From assembly GCF_045679555.1 (NCBI RefSeq), contig NC_092091.1, forward strand, positions 80,958,699 to 81,022,698: 64,000 nucleotides of DNA, read 5' to 3'. Below the pieces are notes generated by a model. It was not told where the DNA came from. It saw only the letters and a list, made by a program, of their open reading frames with translations, and made no database searches. This document shows, one piece after another, positions 826 to 63,100 of this stretch (its first letter is position 1; every line of letters begins with the position of its first letter). The DNA comes from Salvelinus alpinus. Its lineage: Eukaryota; Chordata; Actinopteri; Salmoniformes; Salmonidae. The position numbers and the translations under genes were made by a program.

Positions 826-3800
826 CCACCAGGTGAGGCGTCTACAGTGGTACCTCTTGTTGGCCTGTTCTGTGTAACTCATCTTCTCTGGAGCCTCTTC
901 AAACAGCAGCTCAATCTCAGGTGACTGCTTACTGTCTGTCCCCTCTGGAGTACACACACACTTCAGACTCACTCCACTGAAACTCTAAAAGAGGTGTGTG
1001 TGTACCTGTGTTGTAGTTACAGTCGGGTGTGTGTGTGCCTGTGTTGTAGTTACAGTCGGGTGTGTGTGTGCCTGTGTTGTAGTTATAGTCAGGTGTGTGT
1101 GTACCTGTGTTGTAGTTACAGTCGGGTGTGTGTGTGCCTGTGTTGTAGTTACAGTCGGGTGTGTGTGTGCCTGTGTTGTAGTTATAGTCAGGTGTGTGTG
1201 TACCTGTGTTGTAGTTATAGTCAGGTGAGTGTGTACCTGTGTTGTAGTTACAGTCGGGTGTGTGTGTGCCTGTGTTGTAGTTACAGTCAGGTGAGTGTGT
1301 ACCTGTGTTGTAGTTACAGTCGGGTGTGTGTGTACCTGTGTTGTAGTTACAGTCAGGTGAGTGTGTACCTGTGTTGTAGTTACAGTCGGGTGTGTGTGTA
1401 CCTGTGTTGTAGTTACAGTCAGGTGAGTGTGTACCTGTGTTGTAGTTACAGTCGGGTGTGTGTGTGCCTGTGTTGTAGTTATAGTCAGGTGTGTGTGTAC
1501 CTGTGTTGTAGTTACAGTCAGGTGAGTGTGTACCTGTGTTGTAGTTATAGTCAGGTGTGTGTGTACCTGTGTTGTAGTTACAGTCAGGTGAGTGTGTACC
1601 TGTGTTGTAGTTACAGTCGGGTGTGTGTGTACCTGTGTTGTAGTTACAGTCAGGTGTTTGTGTACCTGTGTTGTAGTTACAGTCAGGTGAGTGTGTACCT
1701 GTGTTGTAGTTACAGTCGGGTGTGTGTGTGCCTGTGTTGTAGTTATAGTCAGGTGTGTGTGTACCTGTGTTGTAGTTACAGTCAGGTGAGTGTGTACCTG
1801 TGTTGTAGTTACAGTCGGGTGTGTGTGTGCCTGTGTTGTAGTTATAGTCAGGTGTGTGTGTACCTGTGTTGTAGTTACAGTCAGGTGAGTGTGTACCTGT
1901 GTTGTAGTTACAGTCGGGTGTGTGTGTGCCTGTGTTGTAGTTATAGTCAGGTGTGTGTGTACCTGTGTTGTAGTTACAGTCAGGTGAGTGTGTACACAAT
2001 CGGGTGTGTGTGTACCTGTGTTGTAGTTACAGTCAGGTGTTTGTGTACCTGTGTAGTAGTTATAGTCAGGTGTGTGTGTACCTGTGTTGTAGTTATAGTC
2101 AGGTGTGTGTGTACCTGTGTTGTAGTTATAGTCAGGTGTGTGTGTACCAGTGTTGTAGTTATAGTCAGGTGTGTGTGTACCTGTGTTGTAGTTACAGTCA
2201 GGTGAGTGTGTACCTGTGTTGTAGTTACAGTCGTGTGTGTGTGTGCCTGTGTTGTAGTTATAGTCAGGTGTGTGTGTACCTGTGTTGTAGTTACAGTCGG
2301 GTGTGTGTGTGCCTGTGTTGTAGTTATAATCAGGTGTGTGTGTACCTGTGTTGTAGTTACAGTCAGGTGTTTGTGTACCTGTGTAGTAGTTATAGTCAGG
2401 TGTGTGTGTACCTGTGTAGTAGTTATAGTCAGGTGTGTGTGTGTACCTGTGTTGTAGTTATAGTCAGGTGTGTGTGTACCTGTGTAGTAGTTATAGTCAG
2501 GTGTGTGTGTACCTGTGTTGTAGTTATAGTCAGGTGTGTGTGTACCTGTGTTGTAGTTATAGTCAGGTGTGTGTGTACCTGTGTTGTAGTTATAGTCAGG
2601 TGTGTGTGTGTACCTGTGTTGTAGTTATAGTCAGGTGTGTTTGTACCTGTGTTGTAGTTATAGTCAGGTGTGTGTGTGTACCTGTGTTGCAGTTATAGTC
2701 AGGTGTGTGTGTACCTGTGTTGTAGTTATAGTCAGGTGTGTGTGTGTACCTGTGTTGCAGTTATAGTCAGGTGTGTGTGTACCTGTGTTGTAGTTATAGT
2801 CAGGTGTGTGTGTGTACCTGTGTTGTAGTTGTAGTCAGGTGTGTGTGTGTACCAGTGTTGTAGTTATAGTCAGGTGTGTGTGTACCTGTGTTGTAGTTAT
2901 AGTCAGGTGTGTGTGTACCTGTGTTGCAGTTATAGTCAGGTGTGTGTGTACCTGTGTTGTAGTTATAGTCAGGTGTGTGTGTACCTGTGTTGTAGTTACA
3001 GTCAGGTGAGTGTGTACCTGTGTTGTAGTTATAGTCAGGTGTGTGTGTACCTGTGTTGTAGTTACAGTCAGGTGAGTGTGTACCTGTGTTGTAGTTATAG
3101 TCAGGTGTGTGTGTACCTGTGTTGTAGTTATAGTCAGGTGTGTGTGTACCTGTGTTGTAGTTATAGTCAGGTGTGTGTGTGTACCTGTGTTGTAGTTGTA
3201 GTCAGGTGTGTGTGTGTACCTGTGTTGTAGTTATAGTCAGGTGTGTGTGTGTACCTGTGTTGCAGTTATAGTCAGGTGAGTGTGTACCTGTGTTGTAGTT
3301 ATAGTCAGGTGTGTGTGTACCTGTGTTGTAGTTATAGTCAGGTGTGTGTGTGCCTGTGTTGTAGTTATAGTCAGGTGTGTGTGTGTACCTGTGTTGTAGT
3401 TATAGTCAGGTGTGTGTGTGTACCTGTGTTGTAGTTGTAGTCAGGTGTGTGTGTGTACCTGTGTTGTAGTTATAGTCAGGTGTGTGTGTACCTGTGTTGT
3501 AGTTGTAGTCAGGTGTGTGTGTACCTGTGTTGTAGTTATAGTCAGGTGTGTGTGTGTACCTGTGTTGTAGTTATAGTCAGGTGTGTGTGTGTACCTGTGT
3601 TGTAGTTATAGTCAGGTGTGTGTGTGTACCTGTGTTGTAGTTATAGTCAGGTGTGTGTGTGTACCTGTGTTGTAGTTGTAGTCAGGTGTGTGTGTGTACC
3701 TGTGTTTTAGTTATAGTCAGGTGTGTGTGTGTACCTGTGTTGTAGCTATAGTCAGGTGTGTGTGTGTACCTGTGTTGTAGTTATAGTCAGGTGTGTGTGT

Positions 3801-6800
3801 GTACCTGTGTTGTAGTTATAGTCAGGTGTGTGTGTACCTGTGTTGTAGTTATAGTCAGGTGTGTGTGTGTACCTGTGTTGTAGTTGTAGTCAGGTGTGTG
3901 TGTGTACCTGTGTTGTAGTTATAGTCAGGTGTGTGTGTACCTGTGTTGTAGTTATAGTCAGGTGTGTGTGTGTACCTGTGTTGTAGTTGTAGTCAGGTGT
4001 GTGTGTGTACCTGTGTTGTAGTTATAGTCAGGTGTGTGTGTGTACCTGTGTTGTAGTTATAGTCAGGTGTGTGTGTACCAGTGTTGTAGTTATAGTCAGG
4101 TGTGTGTGTACCTGTGTTGTAGTTGTAGTCAGGTGTGTGTGTGTGTACCTGTGTTGTAGTTATAGTCAGGTGTGTGTGTGTACCTGTGTTGTAGCTATAG
4201 TCAGGTGTGTGTGTGTACCTGTGTTGTAGTTATAGTCAGGTGTGTGTGTACCTGTGTTGTAGTTATAGTCAGGTGTGTGTGTGTACCTGTGTTGTAGTTG
4301 TAGTCAGGTGTGTGTGTGTACCTGTGTTGTAGTTATAGTCAGGTGTGTGTGTACCTGTGTTGTAGTTATAGTCAGGTGTGTGTGTGTACCTGTGTTGTAG
4401 TTGTAGTCAGGTGTGTGTGTGTACCTGTGTTGTAGTTATAGTCAGGTGTGTGTGTACCTGTGTTGTAGTTATAGTCAGGTGTGTGTGTGTACCTGTGTTG
4501 TAGTTATAGTCAGGTGTGTGTGTACCTGTGTTGTAGCTATAGTCAGGTGTGTGTGTGTACCTGTGTTGTAGTTGTAGTCAGGTGTGTGTGTGTACCTGTG
4601 TTGTAGTTATAGTCAGGTGTGTGTGTGTACCTGTGTTGTAGTTGTAGTCAGGTGTGTATCCTGCCTCCAACATGGCCGTGTGACAGGCGCTACTGGCCAC
4701 CTCCTTTACCAGCTCCCTGAACTCTTCCAGACGAGAAGATACCTGCACGGAGAATATGTCATGTAAAGGGACAGACACACAGAGAATATGTCATGTAAAG
4801 GGACAGACACACAGAGAATATGTCACGTAAAGGGACAGACACACAGAGAATATGTCATGTAAAGGGACAGACACACAGAGAATATGTCATGTAAAGGGAC
4901 AGACACACAGAGAATATGTCATGTAAAGGGACAGACACACAGAGAATATGTCATGTAAAGGGGCAGACACACAGAGAATATGTCATGTAAAGGGACAGAC
5001 ACACAGAGAATATGTCATGTAAAGGGACAGACACACAGAGAATATGTCATGTAAAGGGACAGACACACAGAGAATATGTCATGTAAAGGGACAGACACAC
5101 AGAGAATATGTCATGTAAAGGGACAGACACACAGAGAATATGTCATGTAAAGGGACAGACACACAGAGAATATGTCATGTAAAGGGACAGACACACAGAA
5201 AATATGTCATGTAAAGGGACAGACACACAGAGAATATGTCATGTAAAGGGACAGACACACAGAGAATATGTCATGTAAAGGGACAGACACACAGAGAATA
5301 TGTCATGTAAAGGGACAGACACACAGAGAATATGTCATGTAAAGGGACAGACACACAGAGAATATGTCATGTAAAGGGACAGACACACAGAGAATATGTC
5401 ATGTAAAGGGACAGACACACAGAGAATATGTCATGTAAAGGGGCAGACACACAGAGAATATGTCACGTAAAGGGACAGACACACAGAGAATATGTCACGT
5501 AAAGGGACAGACACACAGAGAATATGTCATGTAAAGGGACAGACACACAGAGAATATGTCATGTAAAGGGACAGACACACAGAGAATATGTCATGTAAAG
5601 GGACAGACACACAGAGAATATGTCATGTAAAGGGACAGACACACAGAGAATATGTCATGTAAAGGGACAGACACACAGAGAATATGTCAAGTAAAGGGAC
5701 AGACACACAGAGAATATGTCATGTAAAGGGACAGACACACAGAGAATATGTCATGTAAAGGGACAGACACACAGAGAATATGTCACGTAAAGGGACAGAC
5801 ACACAGAGAATATGTCATGTAAAGGGACAGACACACAGAGAATATGTCATGTAAAGGGACAGACACACAGAGAATATGTCATGTAAAGGGACAGACACAC
5901 AGAGAATATGTCATGTAAAGGGACAGTCACACAGAGAATATGTCAAGTAAAGGGACAGACACACAGAGAATATGTCATGTAAAGGGGCAGACACACAGAG
6001 AATATGTCATGTAAAGGGACAGACACACAGAGAATATGTCATGTAAAGGGACAGACACACAGAGAATATGTCATGTAAAGGGACAGACACACAGAGAATA
6101 TGTCATGTAAAGGGACAGACACACAGAGAATATGTCATGTAAAGGGACAGACACACAGAGAATATGTCATGTAAAGGGGCAGACACACAGAGAATATGTC
6201 ATGTAAAGGGACAGACACACAGAGAATATGTCATGTAAAGGGACAGACACACAGAGAATATGTCATGTAAAGGGACAGACACACAGAGAATATGTCATGT
6301 AAAGGGACAGACACACAGAGAATATGTCATGTAAAGGGACAGACACACAAAGAATATGTCATGTAAAGGGACAGACACACAGAGAATATGTCATGTAAAG
6401 GGACAGACACAGAGAGAATATGTCATGTAAAGGGACAGACACACAGAGAATATGTCATGTAAAGGGACAAACACACAGAGAATATGTCATGTAAAGGGAC
6501 AGACACACAGAGAATATGTCATGTAAAGGGACAGACACACAGAGAATATGTCATGTAAAGGGACAGACACACAGAGAATATGTCATGTAAAGGGACAAAC
6601 ACACAGAGAATATGTCATGTAAAGGGACAGACACACAGAGAATATGTCAAGTAAAGGGACAGACACACAGAGAATATGTCATGTAAAGGGACAGACACAC
6701 AGAGAATATGTCATGTAAAGGGACAGACACACAGAGAATATGTCATGTAAAGGGACAGACACACAGAGAATATGTCATGTAAAGGGACAGACACACAGAG

Positions 6801-9800
6801 AATATGTCATGTAAAGGGACAGACACACAGAGAATATGTCAAGTAAAGGGACAGACACACAGAGAATATGTCATGTAAAGGGACAGACACACAGAGAATA
6901 TGTCATGTAAAGGGACAGACACACAGAGAATATGTCATGTAAAGGGACAGACACACAGAGAATATGTCATGTAAAGGGACAGACACACAGAGAATATGTC
7001 ATGTAAAGGGACAGACACACGGAGAATATGTCATGTAAAGGGACAGACACACAGAGAATATGTCATGTAAAGGGACAGACACACAGAGAATATGTCATGT
7101 AAAGGGACAGACACACATAGAATATGTCATGTAAAGGGACAGACACACAGAGAATATGTCATGTAAAGGGACAGACACACAGAGAATATGTCATGTAAAG
7201 GGACAGACACACAGAGAATATGTCATGTAAAGGGACAGACACAGAGAATATGTCAAGTAAAGGGACAGACACACGGAGAATATGTCATGTAAAGGGACAG
7301 ACACACAGAGAATATGTCATGTAAAGGGACAGACACACAGAGAATATGTCATGTAAAGGGACAGACACACAGAGAATATGTCATGTAAAGGGACAGACAC
7401 ACAGAGAATATGTCATGTAAAGGGACAGACACACATAGAATATGTCATGTAAAGGGACAGACACACAGAGAATATGTCATGTAAAGGGACAGACACACAG
7501 AGAATATGTCATGTAAAGGGACAGACACACAGAGAATATGTCATGTAAAGGGACAGACACAGAGAATATGTCAAGTAAAGGGACAGACACACAGAGAATA
7601 TGTCATGTAAAGGGACAGACACACAGAGAATATGTCATGTAAAGGGACAGACACACAGAGAATATGTCATGTAAAGGGACAGACACACAGAGAATATGTC
7701 ATGTAAAGGGACAGACACACAGAGAATATGTCATGTAAAGGGACAGACACACAGAGAATACGTCATGTAAAGGGACAGACACACAGAGAATATGTTATGT
7801 AAAGGGACAGACACACAGAGAATATGTCATGTAAAGGGACAGACACACAGAGAATATGTCATGTAAAGGGACAGACACACAGAGAATATGTCATGTAAAG
7901 GGACAGACACACAGAGAATACGTCATGTAAAGGGACAGACACACAGAGAATACGTCATGTAAAGGGACAGACACACAGAGAATACGTCATGTAAAGGGAC
8001 AGACACACAGAGAATATGTCAAGTAAAGGGACAGACACACAGAGAATATGTCATGTAAAGGGACAGACACACGGAGAATATGTCATGTAAAGGGACAGAC
8101 ACACAGAGAATATGTCATGTAAAGGGACAGACACACAGAGAATATGTCATGTAAAGGGACAGACACACAGAGAATATGTCATGTAAAGGGACAGACACAC
8201 AGAGAATATGTCAAGTAAAGGGACAGACACACAGAGAATATGTCATGTAAAGGGACAGACACACGGAGAATATGTCATGTAAAGGGACAGACACACAGAG
8301 AATATGTCATGTAAAGGGACAGACACACAGAGAATATGTCATGTAAAGGGACACACACAGAGAATATGTCATGTAAAGGGACAGACACACAGAGAATATG
8401 TCATGTAAAGGGACAGACACACAGAGAATATGTCATGTAAAGGGACAGACACACAGAGAATATGTCATGTAAAGGGACAGACACACAGAGAATATGTCAA
8501 GTAAAGGGACAGACACACAGAGAATATGTCATGTAAAGGGACACACACAGAGAATATGTCATGTAAAGGGACAGACACACAGAGAATATGTCATGTAAAG
8601 GGACAGACACACAGAGAATATGTCATGTAAAGGGACAGACACACAGAGAATATGTCATGTAAAGGGACAGACACACAGAGAATATGTCATGTAAAGGGAC
8701 AGACACACAGAGAATATGTCATGTAAAGGGACAGACACACAGAGAATATGTCATGTAAAGGGACAGACACACAGAGAATATGTCATGTAAAGGGACAGAC
8801 ACACAGAGAATATGTCAAGTAAAGGGACAGACACACAGAGAATATGTCATGTAAAGGGACAGACACACAGAGAATATGTTATGTAAAGGGACAGACACAC
8901 AGAGAATACGTCATGTAAAGGGACAGACACACAGAGAATATGTCATGTAAAGGGACAGACACACAGAGAATATGTCATGTAAAGGGACAGACACACAGAG
9001 AATATGTCATGTAAAGGGACAGACACACAGAGAATATGTCATGTAAAGGGACAGACACACAAAGAATATGTCATGTAAAGGGACAGACACACATAGACAC
9101 ACACGTCTTGTAAAGGGACAGACACACGTCTTGTAAAGGGACAGACACACATCATGTAAAGGGACACACACGTCACGTAAAGGGACAGACACACGTCACG
9201 TAAAGGGACAGACACACGTCATGTAAAGGGACAGACACACGTGATGTAAAGGGACAGACACACGTCATGTAAAGGGACAGACACACGTCATGTAAAGGGA
9301 CAGACACACGTCACGTAAAGGGACAGACACACGTCATGTAAAGGGACAGACACACGTCATGTAAAGGGACAGACACACGTCATGTAAAGGGACAGACACA
9401 CGTCATGTAAAGGGACAGACACACGTGATGTAAAGGGACAGACATAGTGATGTAAAGGGACAGACATAGTGATGTAAAGGGACAGACATAGTGATGTAAA
9501 GGGACAGACATAGTGATGTAAAGGGACAGACATAGTGATGTAAAGGGACAGACACACGTGATGTAAAGGGACAGACACACGTGATGTAAAGGGACAGACA
9601 CACGTGATGTAAAGGGACAGACACACGTCACGTAAAGGGACAGACACACGTGATGTAAAGGGACAGACACACGTCATGTAAAGGGACAGACACACGTCAT
9701 GTAAAGGGACAGACACACGTCACGTAAAGGGACAGACACACGTCATGTAAAGGGACAGACACACGTCACGTAAAGGGACAGACACACGTCATGTAAAGGG

Positions 9801-12800
9801 ACAGACACACGTGATGTAAAGGGACAGACACACGTGATGTAAAGGGACAGACACACGTGATGTAAAGGGACAGACACACGTGATGTAAAGGGACAGACAC
9901 ACGTCACGTAAAGGGACAGACACACGTGATGTAAAGGGACAGACACACGTGATGTAAAGGGACAGACACACGTGATGTAAAGGGACAGACATAGTGATGT
10001 AAAGGGACAGACATAGTGATGTAAAGGGACAGACATAGTGATGTAAAGGGACAGACATAGTGATGTAAAGGGACAGACACACGTGATGTAAAGGGACAGA
10101 CATAGTGATGTAAAGGGACAGACATAGTGATGTAAAGGGACAGACACACGTGATGTAAAGGGACAGACATAGTGATGTAAAGGGACAGACATAGTGATGT
10201 AAAGGGACAGACACACGTCATGTAAAGGGACAGACATAGTGATGTAAAGGGACAGACATAGTGATGTAAAGGGACAGACACACGTCATGTAAAGGGACAG
10301 ACATAGTGATGTAAAGGGACAGACACACGTCATGTAAAGGGACAGACATAGTGATGTAAAGGGACAGACACACGTCATGTAAAGGGACAGACATAGTGAT
10401 GTAAAGGGACAGACATAGTGATGTAAAGGGACAGACATAGTGATGTAAAGGGACAGACACACGTGATGTAAAGGGACAGACACACATGATGTAAAGGGAC
10501 AGACACACGTGATGTAAAGGGACAGACACACGTGATGTAAAGGGACAGACATAGTGATGTAAAGGGACAGACATAGTGATGTAAAGGGACAGACATAGTG
10601 ATGTAAAGGGACAGACATAGTGATGTAAAGGGACAGACACACGTGATGTAAAGGGACAGACATAGTGATGTAAAGGGACAGACATAGTGATGTAAAGGGA
10701 CAGACACACGTGATGTAAAGGGACAGACACACGTCATGTAAAGGGACAGACATAGTGATGTAAAGGGACAGACACACGTGATGTAAAGGGACAGACACAC
10801 GTCATGTAAAGGGACAGACATAGTGATGTATAGGGACAGACACACGTCACGTAAAGGGACAGACACACGTCACGTAAAGGGACAGACATAGTGATGTAAA
10901 GGGACAGACACATCACGTAAAGGGACAGACACACGTGATGTAAAGGGACAGACATAGTGATGTAAAGGGACAGACATAGTGATGTAAAGGGACAGACATA
11001 GTGATGTAAAGGGACAGACATAGTGATGTAAAGGGACAGACATAGTGATGTAAAGGGACAGACATAGTGATGTAAAGGGACAGACACACGTGATGTAAAG
11101 GGACAGACACACGTGATGTAAAGGGACAGACACACGTGATGTAAAGGGACAGACATAGTGATGTAAAGGGACAGACACACGTGATGTAAAGGGACAGACA
11201 CACGTCACGTAAAGGGACAGACACACGTCACGTAAAGGGACAGACATAGTGATGTAAAGGGACAGACACACGTCACGTAAAGGGACAGACATAGTGATGT
11301 AAAGGGACAGACACACGTGATGTAAAGGGACAGACATAGTGATGTAAAGGGACAGACACACGTCACGTAAAGGGACAGACATAGTGATGTAAAGGGACAG
11401 ACACACGTCATGTAAAGGGACAGACATAGTGATGTAAAGGGACAGACACACGTGATGTAAAGGGACAGACATAGTGATGTAAAGGGACAGACACACATCA
11501 TGTAAAGGGACAGACACACATCATGTAAAGGGACAGACACACGTCATGTAAAGGGACAGACATAGTGATGTAAAGGGACAGACATAGTGATGTAAAGGGA
11601 CAGACATAGTGATGTAAAGGGACAGACACACGTCATGTAAAGGGACAGACACACGTCATGTAAAGGGACAGACACACGTGATGTAAAGGGACAGACACAC
11701 GTCATGTAAAGGGACAGACACACGTCATGTAAAGGGACAGACATAGTGATGTAAAGGGACAGACACACGTGATGTAAAGGGACAGACATAGTGATGTAAA
11801 GGGACAGACACACGTCATGTAAAGGGACAGACACACGTCACGTAAAGGGACAGACATAGTGATGTAAAGGGACAGACACACGTCACGTAAAGGGACAGAC
11901 ATAGTGATGTAAAGGGACAGACATAGTGATGTAAAGGGACAGACATAGTGATGTAAAGGGACAGACATAGTGATGTAAAGGGACAGACACACGTCATGTA
12001 AAGGGACAGACATAGTGATGTAAAGGGACAGACATAGTGATGTAAAGGGACAGACATAGTGATGTAAAGGGACAGACATAGTGATGTAAAGGGACAGACA
12101 CACGTCATGTAAAGGGACAGACATAGTGATGTAAAGGGACAGACATAGTGATGTAAAGGGACAGACATAGTGATGTAAAGGGACAGACATAGTGATGTAA
12201 AGGGACAGACACACGTCATGTAAAGGGACAGACATAGTGATGTAAAGGGACAGACATAGTGATGTAAAGGGACAGACATAGTGATGTAAAGGGACAGACA
12301 TAGTGATGTAAAGGGACAGACACACGTCATGTAAAGGGACAGACACACGTCACGTAAAGGGACAGACATAGTGATGTAAAGGGACAGACACACGTCACGT
12401 AAAGGGACAGACATAGTGATGTAAAGGGACAGACATAGTGATGTAAAGGGACAGACATAGTGATGTAAAGGGACAGACATAGTGATGTAAAGGGACAGAC
12501 ACACGTCATGTAAAGGGACAGACATAGTGATGTAAAGGGACAGACATAGTGATGTAAACGGACAGACATAGTGATGTAAAGGGACAGACATAGTGATGTA
12601 AAGGGACAGACACACGTCATGTAAAGGGACAGACATAGTGATGTAAAGGGACAGACACACGTCATGTAAAGGGACAGACATAGTGATGTAAAGGGACAGA
12701 CATAGTGATGTAAAGGGACAGACATAGTGATGTAAAGGGACAGACATAGTGATGTAAAGGGACAGACACACGTCACGTAAAGGGACAGACATAGTGATGT

Positions 12801-15800
12801 AAAGGGACAGACATAGTGATGTAAAGGGACAGACACACGTCATGTAAAGGGACAGACATAGTGATGTAAAGGGACAGACATAGTGATGTAAAGGGACAGA
12901 CATAGTGATGTAAAGGGACAGACATAGTGATGTAAAGGGACAGACACACGTGATGTAAAGGGACAGACATAGTGATGTAAAGGGAAAGACATAGTGATGT
13001 AAAGGGACAGACATAGTGATGTAAAGGGACAGACATAGTGATGTAAAGGGACAGACATAGTGATGTAAAGGGACAGACACACGTCATGTAAAGGGACAGA
13101 CATAGTGATGTAAAGGGACAGACACACGTCATGTAAAGGGACAGACACACGTCATGTAAAGGGACAGACACACGTCATGTAAAGGGACAGACACACGTCA
13201 TGTAAAGGGACAGACACACGTCATGTAAAGGGACAGACACACGTCATGTAAAGGGACAGACACACGTCATGTAAAGGGACAGACATAGTGATGTAAAGGG
13301 ACAGACATAGTGATGTAAAGGGACAGACATAGTGATGTAAAGGGACAGACATAGTGATGTAAAGGGACAGACATAGTGATGTAAAGGGACAGACATAGTG
13401 ATGTAAAGGGACAGACATAGTGATGTAAAGGGACAGACACACGTCATGTAAAGGGACAGACATAGTGATGTAAAGGGACAGACACACGTGATGTAAAGGG
13501 ACAGACATAGTGATGTAAAGGGACAGACATAGTGATGTAAAGGGACAGACATAGTGATGTAAAGGGACAGACATAGTGATGTAAAGGGACAGACATAGTG
13601 ATGTAAAGGGACAGACACACGTGATGTAAAGGGACAGACACACGTGATGTAAAGGGACAGACATAGTGATGTAAAGGGACAGACATAGTGATGTAAAGGG
13701 ACAGACACACGTGATGTAAAGGGACAGACATAGTGATGTAAAGGGACAGACATAGTGATGTAAAGGGACAGACATAGTGATGTAAAGGGACAGACATAGT
13801 GATGTAAAGGGACAGACACACGTCATGGAAAGGGACAGACATAGTGATGTAAAGGGACAGACATAGTGATGTAAAGGGACAGACATAGTGATGTAAAGGG
13901 ACATACATAGTGATGTAAAGGGACAGACACACGTCATGTAAAGGGACAGACATAGTGATGTAAAGGGACAGACATAGTGATGTAAAGGGACAGACACACG
14001 TCATGTAAAGGGACAGACATAGTGATGTAAAGGGACAGACATAGTGATGTAAAGGGACAGACATAGTGATGTAAAGGGACAGACATAGTGATGTAAAGGG
14101 ACAGACACACGTCATGTAAAGGGACAGACACACGTCACGTAAAGGGACAGACATAGTGATGTAAAGGGACAGACACACGTCATGTAAAGGGACAGACATA
14201 GTGATGCACGTAAAGGGACAGACACACGTGATGTAAAGGGACAGACACACGTCATGTAAAGGGACAGACACACGTCATGTAAAGGGACAGACACACGTGA
14301 TGTAAAGGGACAGACACACGTGATGTAAAGGGACAGACACACGTCATGTAAAGGGACAGACACACGTCATGTAAAGGGACAGACACACGTGATGTAAAGG
14401 GACAGACATAGTGATGTAAAGGGACAGACACACGTCACGTAAAGGGACAGACATAGTGATGTAAAGGGACAGACACACGTCACGTAAAGGGACAGACATA
14501 GTGATGTAAAGGGACAGACATAGTGATGTAAAGGGACAGACATAGTGATGTAAAGGGACAGACATAGTGATGTAAAGGGACAGACACACGTCATGTAAAG
14601 GGACAGACATAGTGATGTAAAGGGACAGACATAGTGATGTAAACGGACAGACATAGTGATGTAAAGGGACAGACATAGTGATGTAAAGGGACAGACACAC
14701 GTCATGTAAAGGGACAGACATAGTGATGTAAAGGGACAGACACACGTGATGTAAAGGGACAGACATAGTGATGTAAAGGGACAGACATAGTGATGTAAAG
14801 GGACAGACATAGTGATGTAAAGGGACAGACATAGTGATGTAAAGGGACAGACACACGTCATGTAAAGGGACAGACATAGTGATGTAAAGGGACAGACATA
14901 GTGATGTAAAGGGACAGACATAGTGATGTAAAGGGACATACATAGTGATGTAAAGGGACAGACACACGTCATGTAAAGGGACAGACATAGTGATGTAAAG
15001 GGACAGACATAGTGATGTAAAGGGACAGACACACGTCATGTAAAGGGACAGACATAGTGATGTAAAGGGACAGACATAGTGATGTAAAGGGACAGACATA
15101 GTGATGTAAAGGGACAGACATAGTGATGTAAAGGGACAGACACACGTCATGTAAAGGGACAGACACACGTCACGTAAAGGGACAGACATAGTGATGTAAA
15201 GGGACAGACACACGTCATGTAAAGGGACAGACATAGTGATGTAAAGGGACAGACACACGTGATGTAAAGGGACAGACACACGTCATGTAAAGGGACAGAC
15301 ACACGTCATGTAAAGGGACAGACACACGTCATGTAAAGGGACAGACACACGTCATGTAAAGGGACAGACACACGTCATGTAAAGGGACAGACACACGTGA
15401 TGTAAAGGGACAGACACACGTGATGTAAAGGGACAGACATAGTGATGTAAAGGGACAGACACACGTCACGTAAAGGGACAGACATAGTGATGTAAAGGGA
15501 CAGACACACGTCATGTAAAGGGACAGACATAGTGATGTAAAGGGACAGACACACGTGATGTAAAGGGACAGACACACGTCATGTAAAGGGACAGACACAC
15601 GTCACGTAAAGGGACAGACATAGTGATGTAAAGGGACAGACATAGTGTAAAGGGACAGACACACGTCATGTAAAGGGACAGACACACGTCATGTAAAGGG
15701 ACAGACACACGTCACGTAAAGGGACAGACACACGTCATGTAAAGGGACAGACATAGTGATGTAAAGGGACAGACATAGTGATGTAAAGGGACAGACATAG

Positions 15801-18800
15801 TGATGTAAAGGGACAGACATAGTGATGTAAAGGGACAGACATAGTGATGTAAAGGGACAGACATAGTGATGTAAAGGGACAGACATACGTCATGTAAAGG
15901 GACAGACATAGTGATGTAAAGGGACAGACACACGTCACGTAAAGGGACAGACACACGTCATGTAAAGAGACAGACATAGTGATGTAAAGGGACAGACATA
16001 GTGATGTAAAGGGACAGACATAGTGATGTAAAGGGACAGACATAGTGATGTAAAGGGACAGACATAGTGATGTAAAGGGACAGACATAGTGATGTAAAGG
16101 GACAGACACACGTCATGTAAAGGGACAGACACACGTCACGTAAAGGGACAGACACACGTGATGTAAAGGGACAGACACACGTCACGTAAAGGGACAGACA
16201 TAGTGATGTAAAGGGACAGACACAGACACACGTGATGTAAAGGGACAGACACACGTCATGTAAAGGGACAGACATAGTGCGTACCTCCTCCAGCTGTTTG
16301 TACTGAGCCTCCTGGAAGTCCTCCAGAGTGTATGTGTGGTCTTTCTGGATGTGACAAAGCCCCATGTCACTGATCCTGTAGCACATCTCTCTGATGTTCA
16401 GCAGCGCCGGACGCAGAGGCTGGAAACACACACAGCTGTTACTGGTCCTCCCTATTATCTTAAAGTAACTACCTTGGTTGTGTTCCATTATATGAACATC
16501 TCATAGGGAAGACAGGATTGTTTCAATAATCTTAAGTAACATTCAGACAACATGAACCAGCCCAAACACATACTGCAGGTTAATGGTACGGACCATTTTG
16601 ACTATAAACACATACTGCAGGTCAATGGTACAGACCATTTAAACTATAAACACGTACTGCAGGTCAATGGTACGGACCATTTAAACTATAAACACATACT
16701 GCAGGTCAATGGTACGGACCATTTTAACTATAAACACATACTGCAGGTCAATGGTAAGGACCATTTAAACTATAAACACATACTGCAGGTCAATGGTACG
16801 GACCATTTTAACTATAAACACATACTGCAGGTCAATGGTACAGACCATTTAAACTATAAACACGTACTGCAGGTCAATGGTACGGACCATTTAAACTATA
16901 AACACATACTGCAGGTCAATGGTACGGACCATTTAAACTATAAACACATACTGCAGGTCAATGGTACAGACCATTTAAACTATAAACACGTACTGCAGGT
17001 CAATGGTACGGACCATTTTAACTATAAACACATACTGCAGGTCAATGGTACGGACCATTTAAACTATAAACACGTACTGCAGGTCAATGGTACGGACCAT
17101 TTAAACTATAAACACGTACTGCAGGTCAATGGTACGGACCATTTAAACTATAAACACATACTGCAGGTCAATGGTACGGACCATTTAAACTATAAACACA
17201 TACTGCAGGTCAATGGTACGGACCATTTAAACTATAAACACATACTGCAGGTCAATGGTACGGACCATTTTAACTATAAACACATACTGCAGGTCAATGG
17301 TACGGACCATTTTAACTATAAACACATACTGCAGGTCAATGGTACGGACCATTTTAACTATAAACACATACTGCAGGTCAATGGTACGGACCATTTAAAC
17401 TATAAACACATACTGCAGGTCAATGGTACGGACCATTTTAACTATAAACACATACTGCAGGTCAATGGTACGGACCATTTTAACTATAAACACATACTGC
17501 AGGTCAATGGTACGGACCATTTTGACTATAAACACATATGGTCTTGTCCTGACCAGGAAACACTACTGGACCCAACAATACCACCACCTCATTGTCCTGA
17601 CCAGGAAACACTACTGGACCCAACAATACCACCACCTCATTGACCTGACCAGGAAACACTACTGGACCCAACAATACCAACACCTCATTATCCTGACCAG
17701 GAAACACTACTGGACCCAGCAATAACACCACCTCATTACCCTGACCAGGAAACACTACTGGACCCAACAATAACACCACCTCATTACCCTGACCAGGAAA
17801 CACTACTGGACCCAACAACACCACCACCTCATTATCCTGACCAGGAAACACTACTGGACCCAACAATACCACCTCATTGACCTGACCAGGAAACACTACT
17901 GGACCCAACAATACCACCACCTCATTATCCTGACCAGGAAACACTACTGGACCCAACAATACCACCTCATTATCCTGACCAGGAAACACTACTGGACACA
18001 ACAATAACACCACCTCATTACCCTGACCAGGAAACACTACTGGACCCAACAATACCACCTCATTGACCTGACCAGGAAACACTACTGGACCCAACAATAC
18101 CACCTCATTATCCTGACCAGGAAACACTACTGGACACAACAATAACACCACCTCATTACCCTGACCAGGAAACACTACTGGACCCAGCAATACCAACACC
18201 TCATTATCCTGACCAGGAAACACTACTGGACCCAACAATATCACCACCTCATTGACCTGACCAGGAAACACTACTGGACCCAACAATACCACCACCTCAT
18301 TGACCTGACCAGGAAACACTACTGGACCCAACAATACCAACACCTCATTACCCTGACCAGGAAACACTACTGGACCCAACAATATCACCACCTCATTGTC
18401 CTGACCAGGAAACACTACTGGACCCAACAACACCACCACCTCATTATCCTGACCAGGAAACACTACTGGACCCAACAATACCACCTCATTGACCTGACCA
18501 GGAAACACTACTGGACCCAACAATACCACCTCATTATCCTGACCAGGAAACACTACTGGACCCAACAATACCACCTCATTATCCTGACCAGGAAACACTA
18601 CTGGACACAACAATAACACCACCTCATTACCCTGACCAGGAAACACTACTGGACCCAACAATACCACCTCATTGACCTGACCAGGAAACACTACTGGACC
18701 CAACAATACCACCTCATTATCCTGACCAGGAAACACTACTGGACACAACAATAACACCACCTCATTACCCTGACCAGGAAACACTACTGGACCCAGCAAT

Positions 18801-21800
18801 ACCAACACCTCATTATCCTGACCAGGAAACACTACTGGACCCAACAATATCACCACCTCATTGACCTGACCAGGAAACACTACTGGACCCAACAATACCA
18901 CCACCTCATTGACCTGACCAGGAAACACTACTGGACCCAACAATACCAACACCTCATTACCCTGACCAGGAAACACTACTGGACCCAACAATATCACCAC
19001 CTCATTGTCCTGACCAGGAAACACTACTGGACCCAACAATACCACCACCTCATTATCCTGACCAGGAAACACTACTGGACCCAACAATACCACCACCTCA
19101 TTGTCCTGACCAGGAAACACTACTGGACCCAACAATATCACCACCTCATTGACCTGACCAGGAAACACTACTGGACCCAACAATACCACCACCTCATTGT
19201 CCTGACCAGGAAACACTACTGGACCCAACAATATCACCACCTCATTGACCTGACCAGGAAACACTACTGGACCCAACAATACCACCACCTCATTGACCTG
19301 ACCAGGAAACACTACTGGACCCAACAATACCACCACCTCATTATCCTGACCAGGAAACACTACTGGACCCAGCAATACCACCACCTCATTGACCTGACCA
19401 GGAAACACTACTGGACCCAACAATACCAACACCTCATTATCCTGACCAGGAAACACTACTGGACCCAGCAATAACACCACCTCATTACCCTGACCAGGAA
19501 ACACTACTGGACCCAACAATAACACCACCTCATTACCCTGACCAGGAAACACTACTGGACCCAACAACACCACCACCTCATTATCCTGACCAGGAAACAC
19601 TACTGGACCCAACAATACCACCTCATTGACCTGACCAGGAAACACTACTGGACCCAACAATACCACCTCATTATCCTGACCAGGAAACACTACTGGACCC
19701 AACAATACCACCTCATTATCCTGACCAGGAAACACTACTGGACACAACAATAACACCACCTCATTACCCTGACCAGGAAACACTACTGGACCCAACAATA
19801 CCACCTCATTGACCTGACCAGGAAACACTACTGGACCCAACAATACCACCTCATTATCCTGACCAGGAAACACTACTGGACACAACAATAACACCACCTC
19901 ATTACCCTGACCAGGAAACACTACTGGACCCAGCAATACCAACACCTCATTATCCTGACCAGGAAACACTACTGGACCCAACAATATCACCACCTCATTG
20001 ACCTGACCAGGAAACACTACTGGACCCAACAATACCACCACCTCATTGACCTGACCAGGAAACACTACTGGACCCAACAATACCAACACCTCATTACCCT
20101 GACCAGGAAACACTACTGGACCCAACAATATCACCACCTCATTGTCCTGACCAGGAAACACTACTGGACCCAACAACACCACCACCTCATTATCCTGACC
20201 AGGAAACACTACTGGACCCAACAATACCACCTCATTGACCTGACCAGGAAACACTACTGGACCCAACAATACCACCTCATTATCCTGACCAGGAAACACT
20301 ACTGGACCCAACAATACCACCTCATTATCCTGACCAGGAAACACTACTGGACACAACAATAACACCACCTCATTACCCTGACCAGGAAACACTACTGGAC
20401 CCAACAATACCACCTCATTGACCTGACCAGGAAACACTACTGGACCCAACAATACCACCTCATTATCCTGACCAGGAAACACTACTGGACACAACAATAA
20501 CACCACCTCATTACCCTGACCAGGAAACACTACTGGACCCAGCAATACCAACACCTCATTATCCTGACCAGGAAACACTACTGGACCCAACAATATCACC
20601 ACCTCATTGACCTGACCAGGAAACACTACTGGACCCAACAACACCACCACCTCATTATCCTGACCAGGAAACACTACTGGACCCAACAATACCACCTCAT
20701 TGACCTGACCAGGAAACACTACTGGACCCAACAATACCACCTCATTATCCTGACCAGGAAACACTACTGGACCCAACAATACCACCTCATTATCCTGACC
20801 AGGAAACACTACTGGACACAACAATAACACCACCTCATTACCCTGACCAGGAAACACTACTGGACCCAACAATACCACCTCATTGACCTGACCAGGAAAC
20901 ACTACTGGACCCAACAATACCACCTCATTATCCTGACCAGGAAACACTACTGGACACAACAATAACACCACCTCATTACCCTGACCAGGAAACACTACTG
21001 GACCCAGCAATACCAACACCTCATTATCCTGACCAGGAAACACTACTGGACCCAACAATATCACCACCTCATTGACCTGACCAGGAAACACTACTGGACC
21101 CAACAATACCACCACCTCATTGACCTGACCAGGAAACACTACTGGACCCAACAATACCAACACCTCATTACCCTGACCAGGAAACACTACTGGACCCAAC
21201 AATATCACCACCTCATTGTCCTGACCAGGAAACACTACTGGACCCAACAATACCACCACCTCATTATCCTGACCAGGAAACACTACTGGACCCAACAATA
21301 CCACCACCTCATTGTCCTGACCAGGAAACACTACTGGACCCAACAATATCACCACCTCATTGACCTGACCAGGAAACACTACTGGACCCAACAATACCAC
21401 CACCTCATTGTCCTGACCAGGAAACACTACTGGACCCAACAATATCACCACCTCATTGACCTGACCAGGAAACACTACTGGACCCAACAATACCACCACC
21501 TCATTGACCTGACCAGGAAACACTACTGGACCCAACAATACCAACACCTCATTACCCTGACCAGGAAACACTACTGGACCCAACAATATCACCACCTCAT
21601 TACCCTGACCAGGAAACACTACTGGACCCAACAATATCACCACCTCATTGTCCTGACCAGGAAACACTACTGGACCCAACAATATCACCACCTCATTGTC
21701 CTGACCAGGAAACACTACTGGACCCAGCAATACCAACACCTCATTATCCTGACCAGGAAACACTACTGGACCCAACAATATCACCACCTCATTGTCCTGA

Positions 21801-28818: not shown

Positions 28819-28820
28819 TA

Positions 28821-29434: not shown

Positions 29435-29497
29435 CTATAGAGACTCCAGGTCTGCCATGGACGATGTTTTCCTTCTCTGTGACGTCATTATACTGAG
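29435..29497 (-). CDS. sclt1: sclt1 last coding exon
   Basis: After CTTTCAG the exon reads [20 protein letters not shown] then TAG, matching the human C-terminus LSVITVQRRKAASLMNLENI position by position. It completes the 688-residue model. Confidence 0.92.
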   Translation of the reverse strand, partial: LSIMTSQRRKTSSMADLESL

Positions 29498-53598: not shown

Positions 53599-54051
53599 GT
53601 TTAATTTCTCTATAATCCTTCCGCCGTCGATTTAAAGAAGGGCACCGCTGAAAAACCAATCACAAAAAAGAAGTGCAACCGCCTATTCTGCCCCCATAAA
53701 TTAGAAACATACAAATAGTTCCACCTATTTCATGGAACACAGTTTAAACCTGGCATCAATCAATTAGATATGAAACGCCATTTCAATATGTAAACAAATG
53801 TACTTCGAGACTGTTGTACTGAGTTGCGTGCCAACTGATTCCGTAATTATTCCACCCAAGAACATCTGATAGGGAAGATATATCATCATATGATCACACC
53901 AGGAAGTTGATACTCCATAGAAAGTGCATTATCTCTTTGGCATGAGCTACTGTATGTATTTTGATAACAAGCTAAATATATAGCCATCACACAAGCGCGC
54001 AACTGGATTCATCCTCTTACAAAGTAAGTAACGTTAGCCTTCCTATTAGTC
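53599..54051. promoter_or_regulatory. Divergent promoter region between sclt1 and the C4orf33 homologue
   Basis: About 450 bp separates the sclt1 non-coding exon (minus strand) from the C4orf33 first exon (plus strand). A CCAAT box lies at 53656-53660. The first ATG of the plus-strand gene is at 54052. Shared or bidirectional control is inferred from the head-to-head layout; no start site is mapped. Confidence 0.5.
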
Positions 54052-54132
54052 ATGATGCACCGATCGTGGACATCGGTGTCGCTAAAAGCGGTTATCTTCC
54101 TCTATGTACTTACATGCGCCGAACTTAAAATG
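54052..54132 (+). CDS. c4orf33: C4orf33 homologue, candidate first exon with signal-peptide-like sequence
   Basis: 27 codons from ATGATG to CTTAAAATG|GTAAGT, joining in frame to exon 2 (ACTGAGATGGAG). The peptide begins [12 protein letters not shown] and then has [11 protein letters not shown], a hydrophobic stretch like a signal peptide. Human C4orf33 instead starts where exon 2 has MEF. A second donor (ACAAA|GTAAGT near 54022) would give a non-coding exon and a start at the exon-2 ATG, so both forms are possible. Confidence 0.5.
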
Positions 54133-57100: not shown

Positions 57101-60100
57101 TATAAAAATCTGTTTTTAAGCAATCGATTTAGTATCATCTTGATGACTATAAACGTGTATATTAACATCACCAATCTGAGGTTAAAAGGATGTGTAAATC
57201 CACTCCATTTATCAGTTGGAAATGCAAGCTTGTGTAAGATAGTAATACAAACCGTCCACATTAGGGGTAGTTAGCACAATATAAAATAATTCTATATGAC
57301 AAAATCAAAAGCTATTGCAACAATTACACCTAGTTCTCACTCATATAACCATTTGAGTGAGTTAAGAAATGCTCTCGAACACAATTTAGCCTCCATTGTT
57401 CCATTTAGCCTCCATAGTTCCATTTAGCCTCCATAGTTCCATTTAGCCTCCATAGTTCCATTTAAGCTCCATAGTTCCATTTAGCCTCCATAGTTACATA
57501 ATATGTTCCATTTAGCCTCCATAGTTCCATTTAAGCTCCATAGTTCCATTTAGCCTCCATAGTTCCATTTAGCATCCATAGTTCCATTTAGCCTCCATAG
57601 TTCCATTTAGCCTCCATAGTTACATAATACGTTCCATTTAGCCTCCATAGTTCCATTTAGCCTCCATAGTTACATTTAAGCTCCATAGTTCCATTTAGCC
57701 TCCATAGTTCCATTTAAGCTCCATAGTTCCATTTAAGCTCCATAGTTCCATTTAGCCTCCATAGTTCCATTTAGCCTCCATAGTTACATTTAAGCTCCAT
57801 AGTTCCATTTAGCCTCCATAGTTCCATTTAGCCTCCATAGTTCCATTTAGCCTCCATTGTTCCATTTAGCAGCCATAGTTACATAATAAGCTCCATAGTT
57901 ACATTTAGCCTCCATAGTGTCTATGCAGCAGCCTGAATGTTTGACTTCCCTAGTATTGGTGCTGCTGTCAACTCCTGCACTCATTGTCAAGCCCGGGAAT
58001 GAACATGATATCACAAACAGATCTGGGACTAGGCTGTGGGTCTTTACACAGCATAGTCTAATCCCATTGTAAATACAAAACAGCAAAACCCATAACCAAT
58101 CGTTCTCTGCCAGACTGAGATGGAGTTTGTGATCAGCACCACATGGGACAGCCTTCCTGTGGATCATGACCCTGTGAAGGTGACGTTTTCTCCCGGGGAT
58201 GGAGGGATGAAGATGCAGGTGTCTGCTCCCTTCTTCAACAACCCCCCTGGTCCCTCCGGCCCTCCAGGACAGCCCTTCCCTGGCCTCTGGAACTATGAAG
58301 GTGGGTAGAGAGAACAGGACAGCCCTTCCCTGGCCTCTGGGACTATGAAGGTGGGTAGAGAGAACAGGACAGCCCTTCCCTGGCCTCTGGGACTATGAAG
58401 GTGGGTAGAGAGAACAGGACAGCCCTTCCCTGGCCTCTGGGACTATGAAGGTGGGTAGAGAGAGTGATAACAGGGTAGCCCTTCCCTGGCCTCTGGAATA
58501 TGAAGGTGGGTAGAGAGAACAGGGCAGCCCTTCCCTGGCCTCTGGGACTATGAAGGTGGGTAGAGAGAACAGGACAGCCCTTCCCTGGCCTCTGGGACTA
58601 TGAAGGTGGGTAGAGAGAACAGGACAGCCCTTCCCTGGCCTCTGGGACTATGAAGGTGGGTAGAGAGAACAGGGCAGCCCTTCCCTGGCCTCTGGGACTA
58701 TGAAGGTGGGTAGAGAGAGAACAGTGGTGGTTTGTCCTGGCCTCTGGGACTATGAAGGTGGGTAGAGAGAACAGGACAGCCCTTCCCTGGCCTCTGGAAC
58801 TATGAAGGTGGGTAGAGAGAGAACAGTGGTGGTTTGTCCTGGCCTCTGGGACTATGAAGGTGGGTAGAGAGAACAGTGGTGGTTTGTCCTGGCCTCTGGG
58901 ACTATGAAGGTGGGTAGAGAGAACAGTGGTGGTTTGTGCTGGCCTCTGGAACTATGAAGGTGGGTAGAGAGAGAACAGTGGTGGTTTGTCCTGGCCTCTG
59001 GGACTATGAAGGTGGGTAGAGAGAGAACAGTGGTGGTTTGTCCTGGCCTCTGGAACTATGAAGGTGGGTAGAGAGAACAGTGGTGGTTTGTCCTGGCCTC
59101 TGGGACTATGAAGGTGGGTAGAGAGAGAACAGTGGTGGTTTGTCCTGGCCTCTGGAACTATGAAGGTGGGTAGAGAGAACAGTGGTGGTTTGTCCTGGCC
59201 TCTGGGACTATGAAGGTGGGTAGAGAGAGAACAGTGGTGGTTTGTCCTGGCCTCTGGGACTATGAAGGTGGGTAGAGAGAACAGTGGTGGTTTGTCCTGG
59301 CCTCTGGAACTATGAAGGTGGGTAGAGAGAGAACAGTGGTGGTTTGTCCTGGCCTCTGGGACTATGAAGGTGGGTAGAGAGAACAGTGGTGGTTTGTCCT
59401 GGCCTCTGGGACTATGAAGGTGGGTAGAGAGAGAACAGTGGTGGTTTGTCCTGGCCTCTGGAACTATGAAGGTGGGTAGAGAGAACAGTGGTGGTTTGTC
59501 CTGGCCTCTGGGACTATGAAGGTGGGTAGAGAGAGAACAGTGGTGGTTTGTCCTGGCCTCTGGGACTATGAAGGTGGGTAGAGAGAACAGTGGTGGTTTG
59601 TCCTGGTCTCTGGAACTATGAAGGTGGGTAGAGAGAACAGTGGTGGTTTGTCCTGGCCTCTGGGAATATGAAGGTGGGTAGAGAGAGAACAGTGGTGGTT
59701 TGTCCTGGCCTCTGGAACTATGAAGGTGGGTAGAGAGAGAACAGTGGTGGTTTGTCCTGGCCTCTGGGACTATGAAGGTGGGTAGAGAGAACAGTGGTGG
59801 TTTGTCCTGGCCTCTGGAACTATGAAGGTGGGTAGAGAGAGAACAGTGGTGGTTTGTCCTGGCCTCTGGGACTATGAAGGTGGGTAGAGAGAACAGTGGT
59901 GGTTTTTCCTGGCCTCTGGAACTATGAAGGTGGGTAGAGAGAGAACAGTGGTGGTTTGTCCTGGCCTCTGGGACTATGAAGGTGGGTAGAGAGAGAACAG
60001 TGGTGGTTTGTCCTGGCCTCTGGGACTATGAAGGTGGGTAGAGAGAGAACAGGACAGTCCTTCCCTGGCCTCTGGGACTATGAAGGTGGGTAGAGAGAGA

Positions 60101-63100
60101 ACAGTGGTGGTTTGTCCTGGCCTCTGGAACTATGAAGGTGGGTAGAGAGAGAACAGGACAGTCCTTCCCTGGCCTCTGGGACTGTGAAGGTGGGTAGAGA
60201 GAACAGGGCAGCCCTTCCCTGGCCTCTGGGACTATGAAGGTGGGTAGAGAGAACAGGACAGTCCTTCCCTGGCCTCTGGGACTATGAAGGTGGGTAGAGA
60301 GAGAACAGTGGTGGTTTGTCCTGGCCTCTGGGACTATGAAGGTGGGTAGAGAGAACAGGACAGCCCTTCCCTGGCCTCTGGGACTATGAAGGTGGGTAGA
60401 GAGAACAGGACAGCCCTTCCCTGGCCTCTGGAACTATGAAGGTGGGTAGAGAGAACAGGGCAGCCCTTCCCTGGCCTCTGGGACTATGAAGGTGGGTAGA
60501 GAGAACAGGGCAGCCCTTCCCTGGCCTCTGGGACTATGAAGGTGGGTAGAGAGAACAGGACAGCCCTTCCCTGGCCTCTGGGACTATGAAGGTGGGTAGA
60601 GAGAACAGGGCAGCCCTTCCCTGGCCTCTGGGACTATGAAGGTGGGTAGAGAGAACAGGGCAGCCCTTCCCTGGCCTCTGGGACTATGAAGGTGGGTAGA
60701 GAGAACAGGACAGCCCTTCCCTGGCCTCTGGGACTATGAAGGTGGGTAGAGAGAACAGGACAGCCCTTCCCTGGCCTCTGGGACCATGAAGGTGGGTAGA
60801 GAGAACAGGACAGCCCTTCCCTGGCCTCTGGGACTATGAAGGTGGGTAGAGAGAACAGGACAGCCCTTCCCTGGCCTCTGGGACTATGAAGGTGGATAGA
60901 GAGAACAGGGCAGCCCTTCCCTGGCCTCTGGGACTGTGAAGGTGGGTAGAGAGAACAGTGGTGGTTTGTCCTGGTCGTGGGGGTAATTGCATAATCATAA
61001 CTATTACTACCATAATCATTGTGAAGTGAATATTGAATGTATCGTTGATTGCTCATTTTTTATGTGGTTTGTGGATGTTTTTTCTGCCATCCTACTTTAG
61101 GCCACTAGGCACAACAAGATGGTTTTTCAACGCATATAATATAACACTTTTTATGTTATTTTTCTACAGTGGTTGAGGCGTTCTTTCTGGACAGTACTAC
61201 TGTGAACTATCTAGAGGTGGAAGTGTGTCCGTAAGTAGAGGCGTTTTCTAAAGGCCTTGATGGCCTGATTGATGGTTTTCCAGTAGCACTGTACTGATTC
61301 TTGCTCTTCTGTTGCAGACATGGACAACACTTGGTGTTACTGCTCTCTGGAAGAGGTCACGCATTCATGGTAAGAGAACACCATCACATCCTCCCTATGG
61401 ATGAATGACTGAATGGATGAATGACCGAATGGATGAATGGATGAATGACTGAATGGATGAATGACCGAATGGATGAATGACCGAATGGATGAATGACCGA
61501 ATGGATGAATGAATGAATGGATGAATGGATGAATGAATGACTGAATGGATGAATGACTGAATGGATGAATGACTGAATGGATGAATGACCGAATGGATGA
61601 ATGACCGAATGGATGAATGACCGAATGGATGAATGATGAATGACCGAATGGATGAATGACCGAATGGATGAATGACCGAATGGATGAATGACCGAATGGA
61701 TGAATGACTGAATGGATGAATGACTGAATGGATGAATGACTGAATGACCGAATGGATGACTGACCGAATGAATGACTGAATGAATGATGAATGACTGAAT
61801 GGATGAATGACCGAATGGATGAATGACCGAATGGATGAATGACCGAATGGATGAATGACTGAATGGATGAATGACCGAATGGATGAATGACCGAATGGAT
61901 GAATGACCGAATGGATGAATGACCGAATGGATGAATGACCGAATGGATGAATGACTGAATGGATGAATGACTGAATGACTGAATGGATGAATGGGTGAAT
62001 GACCGAATGGATGAATGACCGAATGATCGAATGACTGAATGACCGAATGACTGAATGACCGAATGACTGAATGACCGAATGACTGAATGACCGAATGACT
62101 GAATGGATGAATGACTGAATGGATGAATGACTGAATGGATGAATGACGGAATGGATAAATGACTGAATGGATAAATGACTGAATGGATGAATGACTGAAT
62201 GGATGAATGACTGAATGGATGAATGACTGAATGGATGAATTAATTAATGCATGAAAGAATGAATGAATGAACAATGGAACAGTACAATGTATTACACTCA
62301 TATCTTATAAATATTTAGTTCTGCCCCAATATATTTCATCAAGGTATATTCACATAGACTTACCTCTATTTCGTCACTTACCCTAAAAGTAATCTAAGTG
62401 TCCAACAGATACAGTCATCAATGGTTCAGATTAGGTTTAAAAAAAAAAAATGGCCTCCCGGGTGGCGCAGTGGTCTAGGGCACTGCATCGCAGTGCTAGC
62501 TGCGCCACCAGAGTCTCTGGGTTCGCGCCCAGGCTCTGTCGCAGCCGGCCGCGACCAGGAGGTCCGTGGGGCGACGCACAATTGGCCTAGCGTCGTCCGG
62601 GTTAGGGAGGGTTTGGCCGGTAGGGATATCCTTGTCTCATCGCGCTCCAGCGACTCCTGTGGCGGGCCGGGCGCAGTGCGCGCTAACCAAGGGGGCCAGT
62701 TGCACGGTGTTTCCTCTGACACATTGGTGCGGCTGGCTTCTGGGTTGGAGGCACGCTGTGTTAAGAAGCAGTGCGGCTTGGTTGGGTTGTGCTTCGGAGG
62801 ACGCATGGCTTTCGACCTTCGTCTCTCCCGAGCCCGTACGGGAGTTGTAGCGATGAGACAAGATAGTAATTACTAGCGATTGGATACCACGAAAATTGGG
62901 GAGAAAAGGGAAAGAAAAAAAAATAATAAAAAATAATAATAATTTAAAAAAAATATATATATATATATATGTTTTTGTTTCCAGCAACAACTGCCCCTGT
63001 CGTTCACGGCAACCATCACAGGAAACAGGTGGGAGGGTGAGGCTCTTCTCCCCTGGTGTTACTTCCCCCCTAACGTCAACAAGATGAACTCGTACGCCAT

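Follow-up and report, generated by a model that had tools for sequence, protein, structure and literature searches.

Minisatellite arrays over exon-donor junctions in dnah6 and two neighbouring genes of Salvelinus alpinus

Donor-bearing arrays and the genes that hold them

Minisatellites that begin inside an exon and repeat the exon end together with its 5′ splice site (the donor) are found in three neighbouring genes of Salvelinus alpinus: dnah6, sclt1 and a C4orf33-like gene. The stretch in question, referred to here as the window, is 64,000 nucleotides (nt) long (assembly GCF_045679555.1, contig NC_092091.1, positions 80,958,699 to 81,022,698 of the forward strand), and with 100 kb fetched on each side it forms a region of 264 contiguous kb on one chromosome. 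Arrays were called by Tandem Repeats Finder (TRF), and all coordinates are window positions, with negative values lying to the left of the window. The window yields 53 TRF rows, 17 listed arrays filling 53% of it; after merging, 90 arrays are counted in the 264 kb, and together they cover 51% of a length in which 17.5 kb of N are included. Five of the arrays had been described in an earlier, sequence-only reading as starting inside an exon and repeating its end plus the GT of the donor; TRF and a reading of the junctions place all five where they had been reported.

Three of these arrays belong to dnah6, which lies on the minus strand. Coding exon 3 (25234..25517, minus strand), which is in frame in the protein model described below, has its last 27 nt within a 61-bp minisatellite of ~39 copies (22886..25260, minus strand) that extends over the exon end, the donor and intron 3; the junction, with a slash at the exon end, reads TTCAA/GTAAGAG at 25234, and the GT is kept in 34 of 38 aligned units. 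Coding exon 4 (22268..22535, minus strand), which aligns with the DNAH6 chain in the PDB, enters a 48-bp (in part 45-bp) minisatellite of ~100 copies (17547..22273, minus strand) at the junction AATGAG/GTGGTG (22268). Here the exonic part measures 6 nt by TRF and ~9 nt by eye, and by the TRF figure this is the weakest of the five junction overlaps. Coding exon 6 (4631..4742, minus strand), most of which aligns with PDB DNAH6, contributes its last 27 nt to a 33-bp minisatellite of ~109 copies (992..4657, minus strand) over the exon end, donor and intron 6, with the junction AACACAG/GTACAC at 4631. The sclt1 exon concerned (34585..34731, minus strand; exon 12 of the present model, the exon before intron 15 in the earlier numbering) has 18 nt in a 30-bp minisatellite of ~34 copies over its end and donor (33583..34602, minus strand); the junction is GAGAAG/GTGAGG at 34585, and 27 of 33 aligned units keep the GT. 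The fifth array lies on the plus strand, in a gene taken to be C4orf33. Its first coding exon (58120..58300, plus strand) ends in LWNYE and runs at TATGAAG/GTGGGT (58300) into a 50/102-bp minisatellite of ~53 copies over the exon end and donor (58279..60974, plus strand), which takes in the last 22 nt of the exon by TRF and 34 nt by eye in the first copies. Short motifs of the human protein are found downstream at ~61.2 and 63.1 kb.

Gene models were built with a home-made dynamic-programming gene finder and corrected by hand, which gave 52 exons for dnah6 and 17 for sclt1 (69 in total). Six of the 58 finder rows for dnah6 (starts -12001, -74564, -88398, -89629, -89772 and -95192) were dropped because the PDB alignments run on without them, and three were re-bounded (exons 22, 23 and 49). 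For sclt1, whose model is without its 5′ exons, two of 18 rows were dropped (45464 and 40381) and one was added by eye (29967, its donor being one base off in the tally below). The modelled donor of dnah6 exon 17, which is not an array donor, is probably wrong, since 7 to 8 modelled residues are absent from the PDB chain and from five fish models. Joined at their exon-proximal sites, the dnah6 exons encode 2,785 amino acids in one frame without a stop, and the product aligns to vertebrate DNAH6; its identity rests on a phmmer search of the PDB and a protein search. The sclt1 model was identified by protein search, being 99% identical to a Salvelinus alpinus protein. Pfam returned 0 families for the sclt1 model and 0 for the C4orf33 model. 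An N-terminal dnah6 query matched only its own six exons genome-wide, indicating that the gene has not been recently duplicated.

Recurrence of the geometry, intact decoys and shared variants

The geometry recurs beyond the five cases. With at least 4 exonic nt inside an array required for an overlap, 11 dnah6 donors (exons 3, 4, 6, 19, 23, 24, 34, 37, 45, 48 and 52) and five dnah6 acceptors (exons 17, 22, 29, 32 and 33, all outside the window) lie in arrays. One sclt1 donor and no sclt1 acceptor bring the tally over the 69 exons to 12 donors and 5 acceptors, and the C4orf33-like gene supplies a 13th array donor in the 264 kb. The acceptor of exon 29 has exactly 4 exonic nt in its array, and at a threshold of at least 6 nt the tally is 12 donors versus 4 acceptors. 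A further 33 arrays are internal to introns and touch no junction. Arrays that stop at most 20 nt short of a junction number six on the donor side (dnah6 exons 5, 15, 16, 22 and 41; sclt1 exon 3) and five on the acceptor side (dnah6 exons 6, 18, 45 and 50; sclt1 exon 1). The units are not all unrelated, as they had earlier been described; 2 of 28 pairs (8 of the 13 donor units) exceed the 99.8% point of shuffles and share AC-rich stretches, and descent of the arrays from one shared unit was rejected.

Most units carry a complete donor, as had been proposed when the introns were said to gain decoy donors. The donor base could be aligned in 490 units of the 13 donor arrays (TRF counts ~515 copies, the gap being mostly 45-bp units of exon 4), and GT is retained in 465 of them. 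Among scored donors, the real ones included, 402 of 463 equal or exceed the real donor in strength. No decay of the decoys was seen in the 13 arrays, where the GT positions are as conserved as the rest of the unit (P 0.54), and decay as a sign of harm was thus rejected. Acceptor arrays hold 2 to 14 matching acceptor copies each, and copy number differs between the two kinds of junction, with a median of 30 at donors versus 3 at acceptors (3.1, 3.0, 6.6, 2.1 and 14.0; P 0.019). At dnah6 exon 22 (-12382) the acceptor array repeats 62 nt of exon start plus the pyrimidine tract and AG, which places three decoys upstream of the real exon.

Protein comparisons bear on which donor is used. Four stretches of dnah6 align with PDB DNAH6 (some split codons being missing from the queries), and relative to that chain no array-derived insertion is found at the donors of exons 4, 19, 23, 24, 34, 37, 45 and 48 or at the acceptors of exons 17, 22, 29, 32 and 33; for the exon 29 acceptor the check consists of two queries that abut at adjacent residues of the PDB chain. 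At 10 dnah6 donor junctions the fish models compared (Salmo trutta, Esox, Umbra and Osmerus DNAH6) are free of repeat-unit insertions, and at the exon 6 junction the brown trout model has 6 residues fewer and the smelt model 2 more. A charr DNAH6 annotation had no separate row among the protein matches listed. For sclt1, all 15 aligned models among the 120 listed, nine of them from S. alpinus, join EELEK to VY, which corresponds to the first donor with no insertion. The suggestion that the duplications are tolerated with the first donor still working fits these intact gene models. Elsewhere in sclt1, at 47758-47952, some charr, brook charr and coho models lengthen an exon by 24 to 25 amino acids through an alternative donor that lies outside the called arrays. 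The DNAH6 model of Oncorhynchus mykiss (trout below) departs from the others at the junction of exon 6, where it has two extra 11-amino-acid units that match the charr unit exactly; it also lacks the start of exon 7. The exon 6 array is therefore present in trout, where splicing would take a later exon 6 donor unless the model is in error.

The exon edges that lie in arrays also appear to change with them. At dnah6 residues where trout and brown trout were both aligned, and with charr compared against the agreeing pair, charr-side changes affect 5 of 158 array-covered residues versus 14 of 2,476 others (P 0.004), and 1 of 377 residues in other exon 3′ ends (P 0.01 against the array-covered ones). 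At four of the five changed residues intronic copies, too, show the charr state, and at four of five they show the trout state. Thus exon 37 reads AKK, and of 11 matched decoys two read AKK and nine TNK, as trout and brown trout do; exon 22 has T in the exon and in one decoy, with S in two decoys. Exon 3 has an F that is found in all 23 matched decoys, and a T codon (ACA) that is found only in the exon, the decoys having AGA in 22 cases and in the remaining one AAA, which encodes lysine, the residue of the trout protein. In the C4orf33-like gene the first intronic copies encode LWDYE versus LWNYE in the exon. Read from these patterns, the exon and intronic copies would most simply be exchanging or inheriting variants within one array.

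Origin and tolerance of the junction arrays

The explanation favoured here, to which a probability of roughly 60% is assigned, is ordinary minisatellite birth in compact introns, tolerated through the choice of the exon-proximal copy under exon definition. Local tandem duplication, whether through slippage, recombination or repair, would give rise to minisatellites in the compact introns of a repeat-rich stretch, and with short introns and units of ~30 to 190 bp many births would fall across an exon boundary, so that the end of the exon is repeated together with its splice site. Such births would survive where the exon-proximal copy stays in use. Growth of the array would lengthen the intron and favour exon definition, in which the two sites nearest each other across an exon are paired; decoys downstream of the real donor could then multiply almost freely, and decoy acceptors would mostly stay few. 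An exon edge caught inside an array would share variants with the intronic units, and a few codons would come to evolve with the minisatellite. In large introns the splice sites closest across the exon are preferred, according to PMC9225289, and the donor-array introns of known length (n = 11) measure 546 to 13,018 nt.

Whether chance suffices depends on how long the introns were when the arrays arose. In the chance model each array was collapsed to one unit and placed uniformly in its intron, where it may overlap either junction. For the 49 arrays in modelled introns this gives 5.2 donor and 5.2 acceptor overlaps, against 11 donors (P 0.008) and five acceptors (P 0.62) observed. Exon 52 is not among the 11, since its intron continues past the edge of the region; with it the donors would number 12 and P would be 0.003, which is too favourable. 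Outside the window there are 7 donor overlaps versus 3.35 expected (P 0.037), and in dnah6 and sclt1 of the window 4 versus 1.9 (P 0.09). When ancestral introns are capped at 600, 300, 200 and 120 nt, P for the donor excess becomes 0.026, 0.11, 0.33 and 0.79, respectively. The non-array parts of introns have medians of 290 nt in dnah6 and 197 nt in sclt1, so the capped cases are realistic. It had been argued that exon ends are a tiny fraction of the window and that chance placement is unlikely. With half of the region in arrays (53% of the window) and the non-array parts of introns this short, many chance duplications would straddle junctions, and that argument falls away.

These figures also carry the strongest of the competing explanations, in which mutation tends to duplicate DNA across 5′ splice sites, for instance by slippage linked to transcription or to R-loops, and thereby seeds arrays at donors above chance. 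The donor excess over the uniform expectation, which persists outside the window, suggests such donor-specific seeding, the more so as selection against junction duplications could only reduce the expectation. The excess fades under the shorter intron caps, and donor and acceptor counts taken alone differ with P 0.14 (0.096 with C4orf33). Acceptors too lie in arrays, in the number that chance predicts. A process specific to 5′ splice sites, as first proposed, is not supported, the donor excess being dependent on the ancestral intron length assumed. An R-loop or GC-skew origin in particular was rejected: on the sense strand GC skew is positive in 6 of the 13 units, negative in 6 and 0.0 in one, and this lack of a shared sign does not favour a single R-loop mechanism. 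This explanation is rather unlikely. A wider version, exon-edge capture, is offered tentatively and with slightly better prospects: minisatellites in repeat-rich stretches of salmonid chromosomes would seed preferentially over 5′ splice sites and then swap variants with the exon copy, exon-end residues would evolve by minisatellite turnover, and the spliceosome would have to pick the first of up to ~100 near-identical donors.

It is a good deal less probable that the decoy donors are used, for variable in-frame peptides or for splicing tuning, and are retained on that account. The decoys are intact, the exon frame runs without a stop through all 4.7 kb of the exon 4 array, and the trout model with its two extra units would fit such use. 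Periods divisible by 3, however, show no clear enrichment (7 of 12 donor arrays versus 15 of 33 internal ones), and selection for in-frame units was rejected on that count. Several internal arrays with periods divisible by 3 are also open, including a 21-kb one, and coding use of the exon 4 array was likewise rejected. Of the 11 donor arrays checked for read-through (all but those of exon 45 and C4orf33), 6 run into a stop in the first 75 nt (those of exons 3, 6, 34, 37, 48 and 52), and all nine S. alpinus sclt1 models among those listed take the first donor.

Birth of the introns themselves by tandem duplication of exon sequence (the AGGT model) is very improbable: the units do hold an exon end plus donor, as in an intron-gain case described in PMC4974935, but the acceptor of the next exon lies outside the array in all 11 donor arrays with a modelled next exon, and only 11 of the 52 modelled dnah6 exons have a donor array. 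An assembly artefact can hardly be credited, for although long arrays are difficult to assemble and copy numbers may be wrong, the units hold structured variants, the exons are in frame and the trout protein model has the same 11-amino-acid unit at the same exon 6 junction.

Several points weigh against ordinary birth with exon-proximal splicing. The donor excess (P 0.008, and 0.037 outside the window) needs more than chance if the introns were longer, and the chance test itself comprises few arrays from one region and a hypothesis drawn from the same data. Two acceptor arrays, with 6.6 and 14 copies, are not small. The donors of exons 3 and 6 lie outside the PDB alignments and were compared with fish protein models only, and exon 52 is the last modelled dnah6 exon, its donor falling outside all comparisons. 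The trout model seems to use the third exon 6 donor, so that exon-proximal use may not be strict. The substitution test draws on 5 residues in 3 exons, which probably stem from 4 events.

Other repeats, known systems and meaning

Further repeats of the region lie near the junction arrays without repeating an exon. A 42-bp minisatellite (16564..17538) sits inside dnah6 intron 4 with no exon contact. At dnah6 coding exon 5 (16285..16419, minus strand) the array starts 5 nt past the exon end and repeats no exon sequence; the 11.5-kb intron 5 that follows (4746..16279) is nearly all minisatellite, with 32-bp and 22-bp units. Outside the window, from -45739 to -24483, the 21-kb array mentioned above (48-bp unit, ~431 copies) takes up most of dnah6 intron 32 and has one frame that stays open from end to end. 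A short 59-bp array of 3.9 copies (36386..36614, minus strand) lies near the sclt1 acceptor at 36295, and its diverged last copy may, by eye, include that acceptor; it stands outside the tally. In the right flank three arrays outside the gene models (77037-78586, 92499-95505 and 127066-127369) have units that look donor- or acceptor-bearing by eye. The long sclt1 intron holds the same 14-bp repeat with identical flanking open frames in the same orientation at 36993-37040 and 45577-45624, which might be the ends of one inserted element. Between sclt1 and dnah6, at 27474-28608, there are two opposed open frames with the same sequence start, presumably transposase-like.

Elsewhere in the genome, five arbitrary 8-kb stretches consist of arrays to 16%, these occurring in two of the five, and one dynein stretch on C7 (4.3 kb) has no arrays, only short low-scoring repeats. 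The genome gives 105 AAA_6 matches; at C21:33579225 and C21:33580961 the same dynein AAA_6 segment is matched twice, 1.7 kb apart and with equal score, a possible exon duplication.

The statement that no named system resembles these arrays was too strong. In human IFI6 (6-16) a minisatellite with multiple donors is spliced at two downstream repeat units as well, giving three mRNA species (Turri 1995, as cited in PMC4526556). The charr arrays share with it the position at an exon/intron junction and units with splice donors, found here in all 13 arrays; they differ in occupying 13 junctions of three neighbouring genes, in reaching ~109 copies and in having gene models on the exon-proximal donor. 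Tandem repeats at exon-intron boundaries are also described for genes in human segmental duplications, with 27 intron modifications, units averaging 30 bp in 4 copies, and a repeat-retaining transcript in 66% of the intron cases (PMC2812944). Units at such boundaries and an altered intron structure are common to both. In charr the arrays are longer and confined to one region, where they overlap 12 donors and 5 acceptors among 69 exons, plus the C4orf33 donor; the protein is conserved and dnah6 has no recent duplicate. A 2007 study by Zhuo is said to propose the birth of human introns from tandem arrays; splice sites in tandem arrays are the likeness, and the charr arrays appear instead to expand existing introns. 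Among fishes, intronic minisatellites with copy-number polymorphism are mentioned for the sparid growth hormone gene (PMC3045353), with no statement of overlap with a splice junction. No report of minisatellites over salmonid splice junctions was found in a search with little coverage of subscription literature.

Experiments on donor choice usually set just two or three sites against each other. In dnah6 there are 11 natural donor competitions, with up to ~100 near-identical donors in matching local context, in which position alone can be tested, and the decoy acceptors, mostly in far fewer copies, provide a built-in comparison. The arrays may also record and supply codon changes at exon ends, for which we know of a comparable route only in coding minisatellites. 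If the donor bias holds genome-wide, it would suggest that transcription or splicing is linked to the mutational process behind it.

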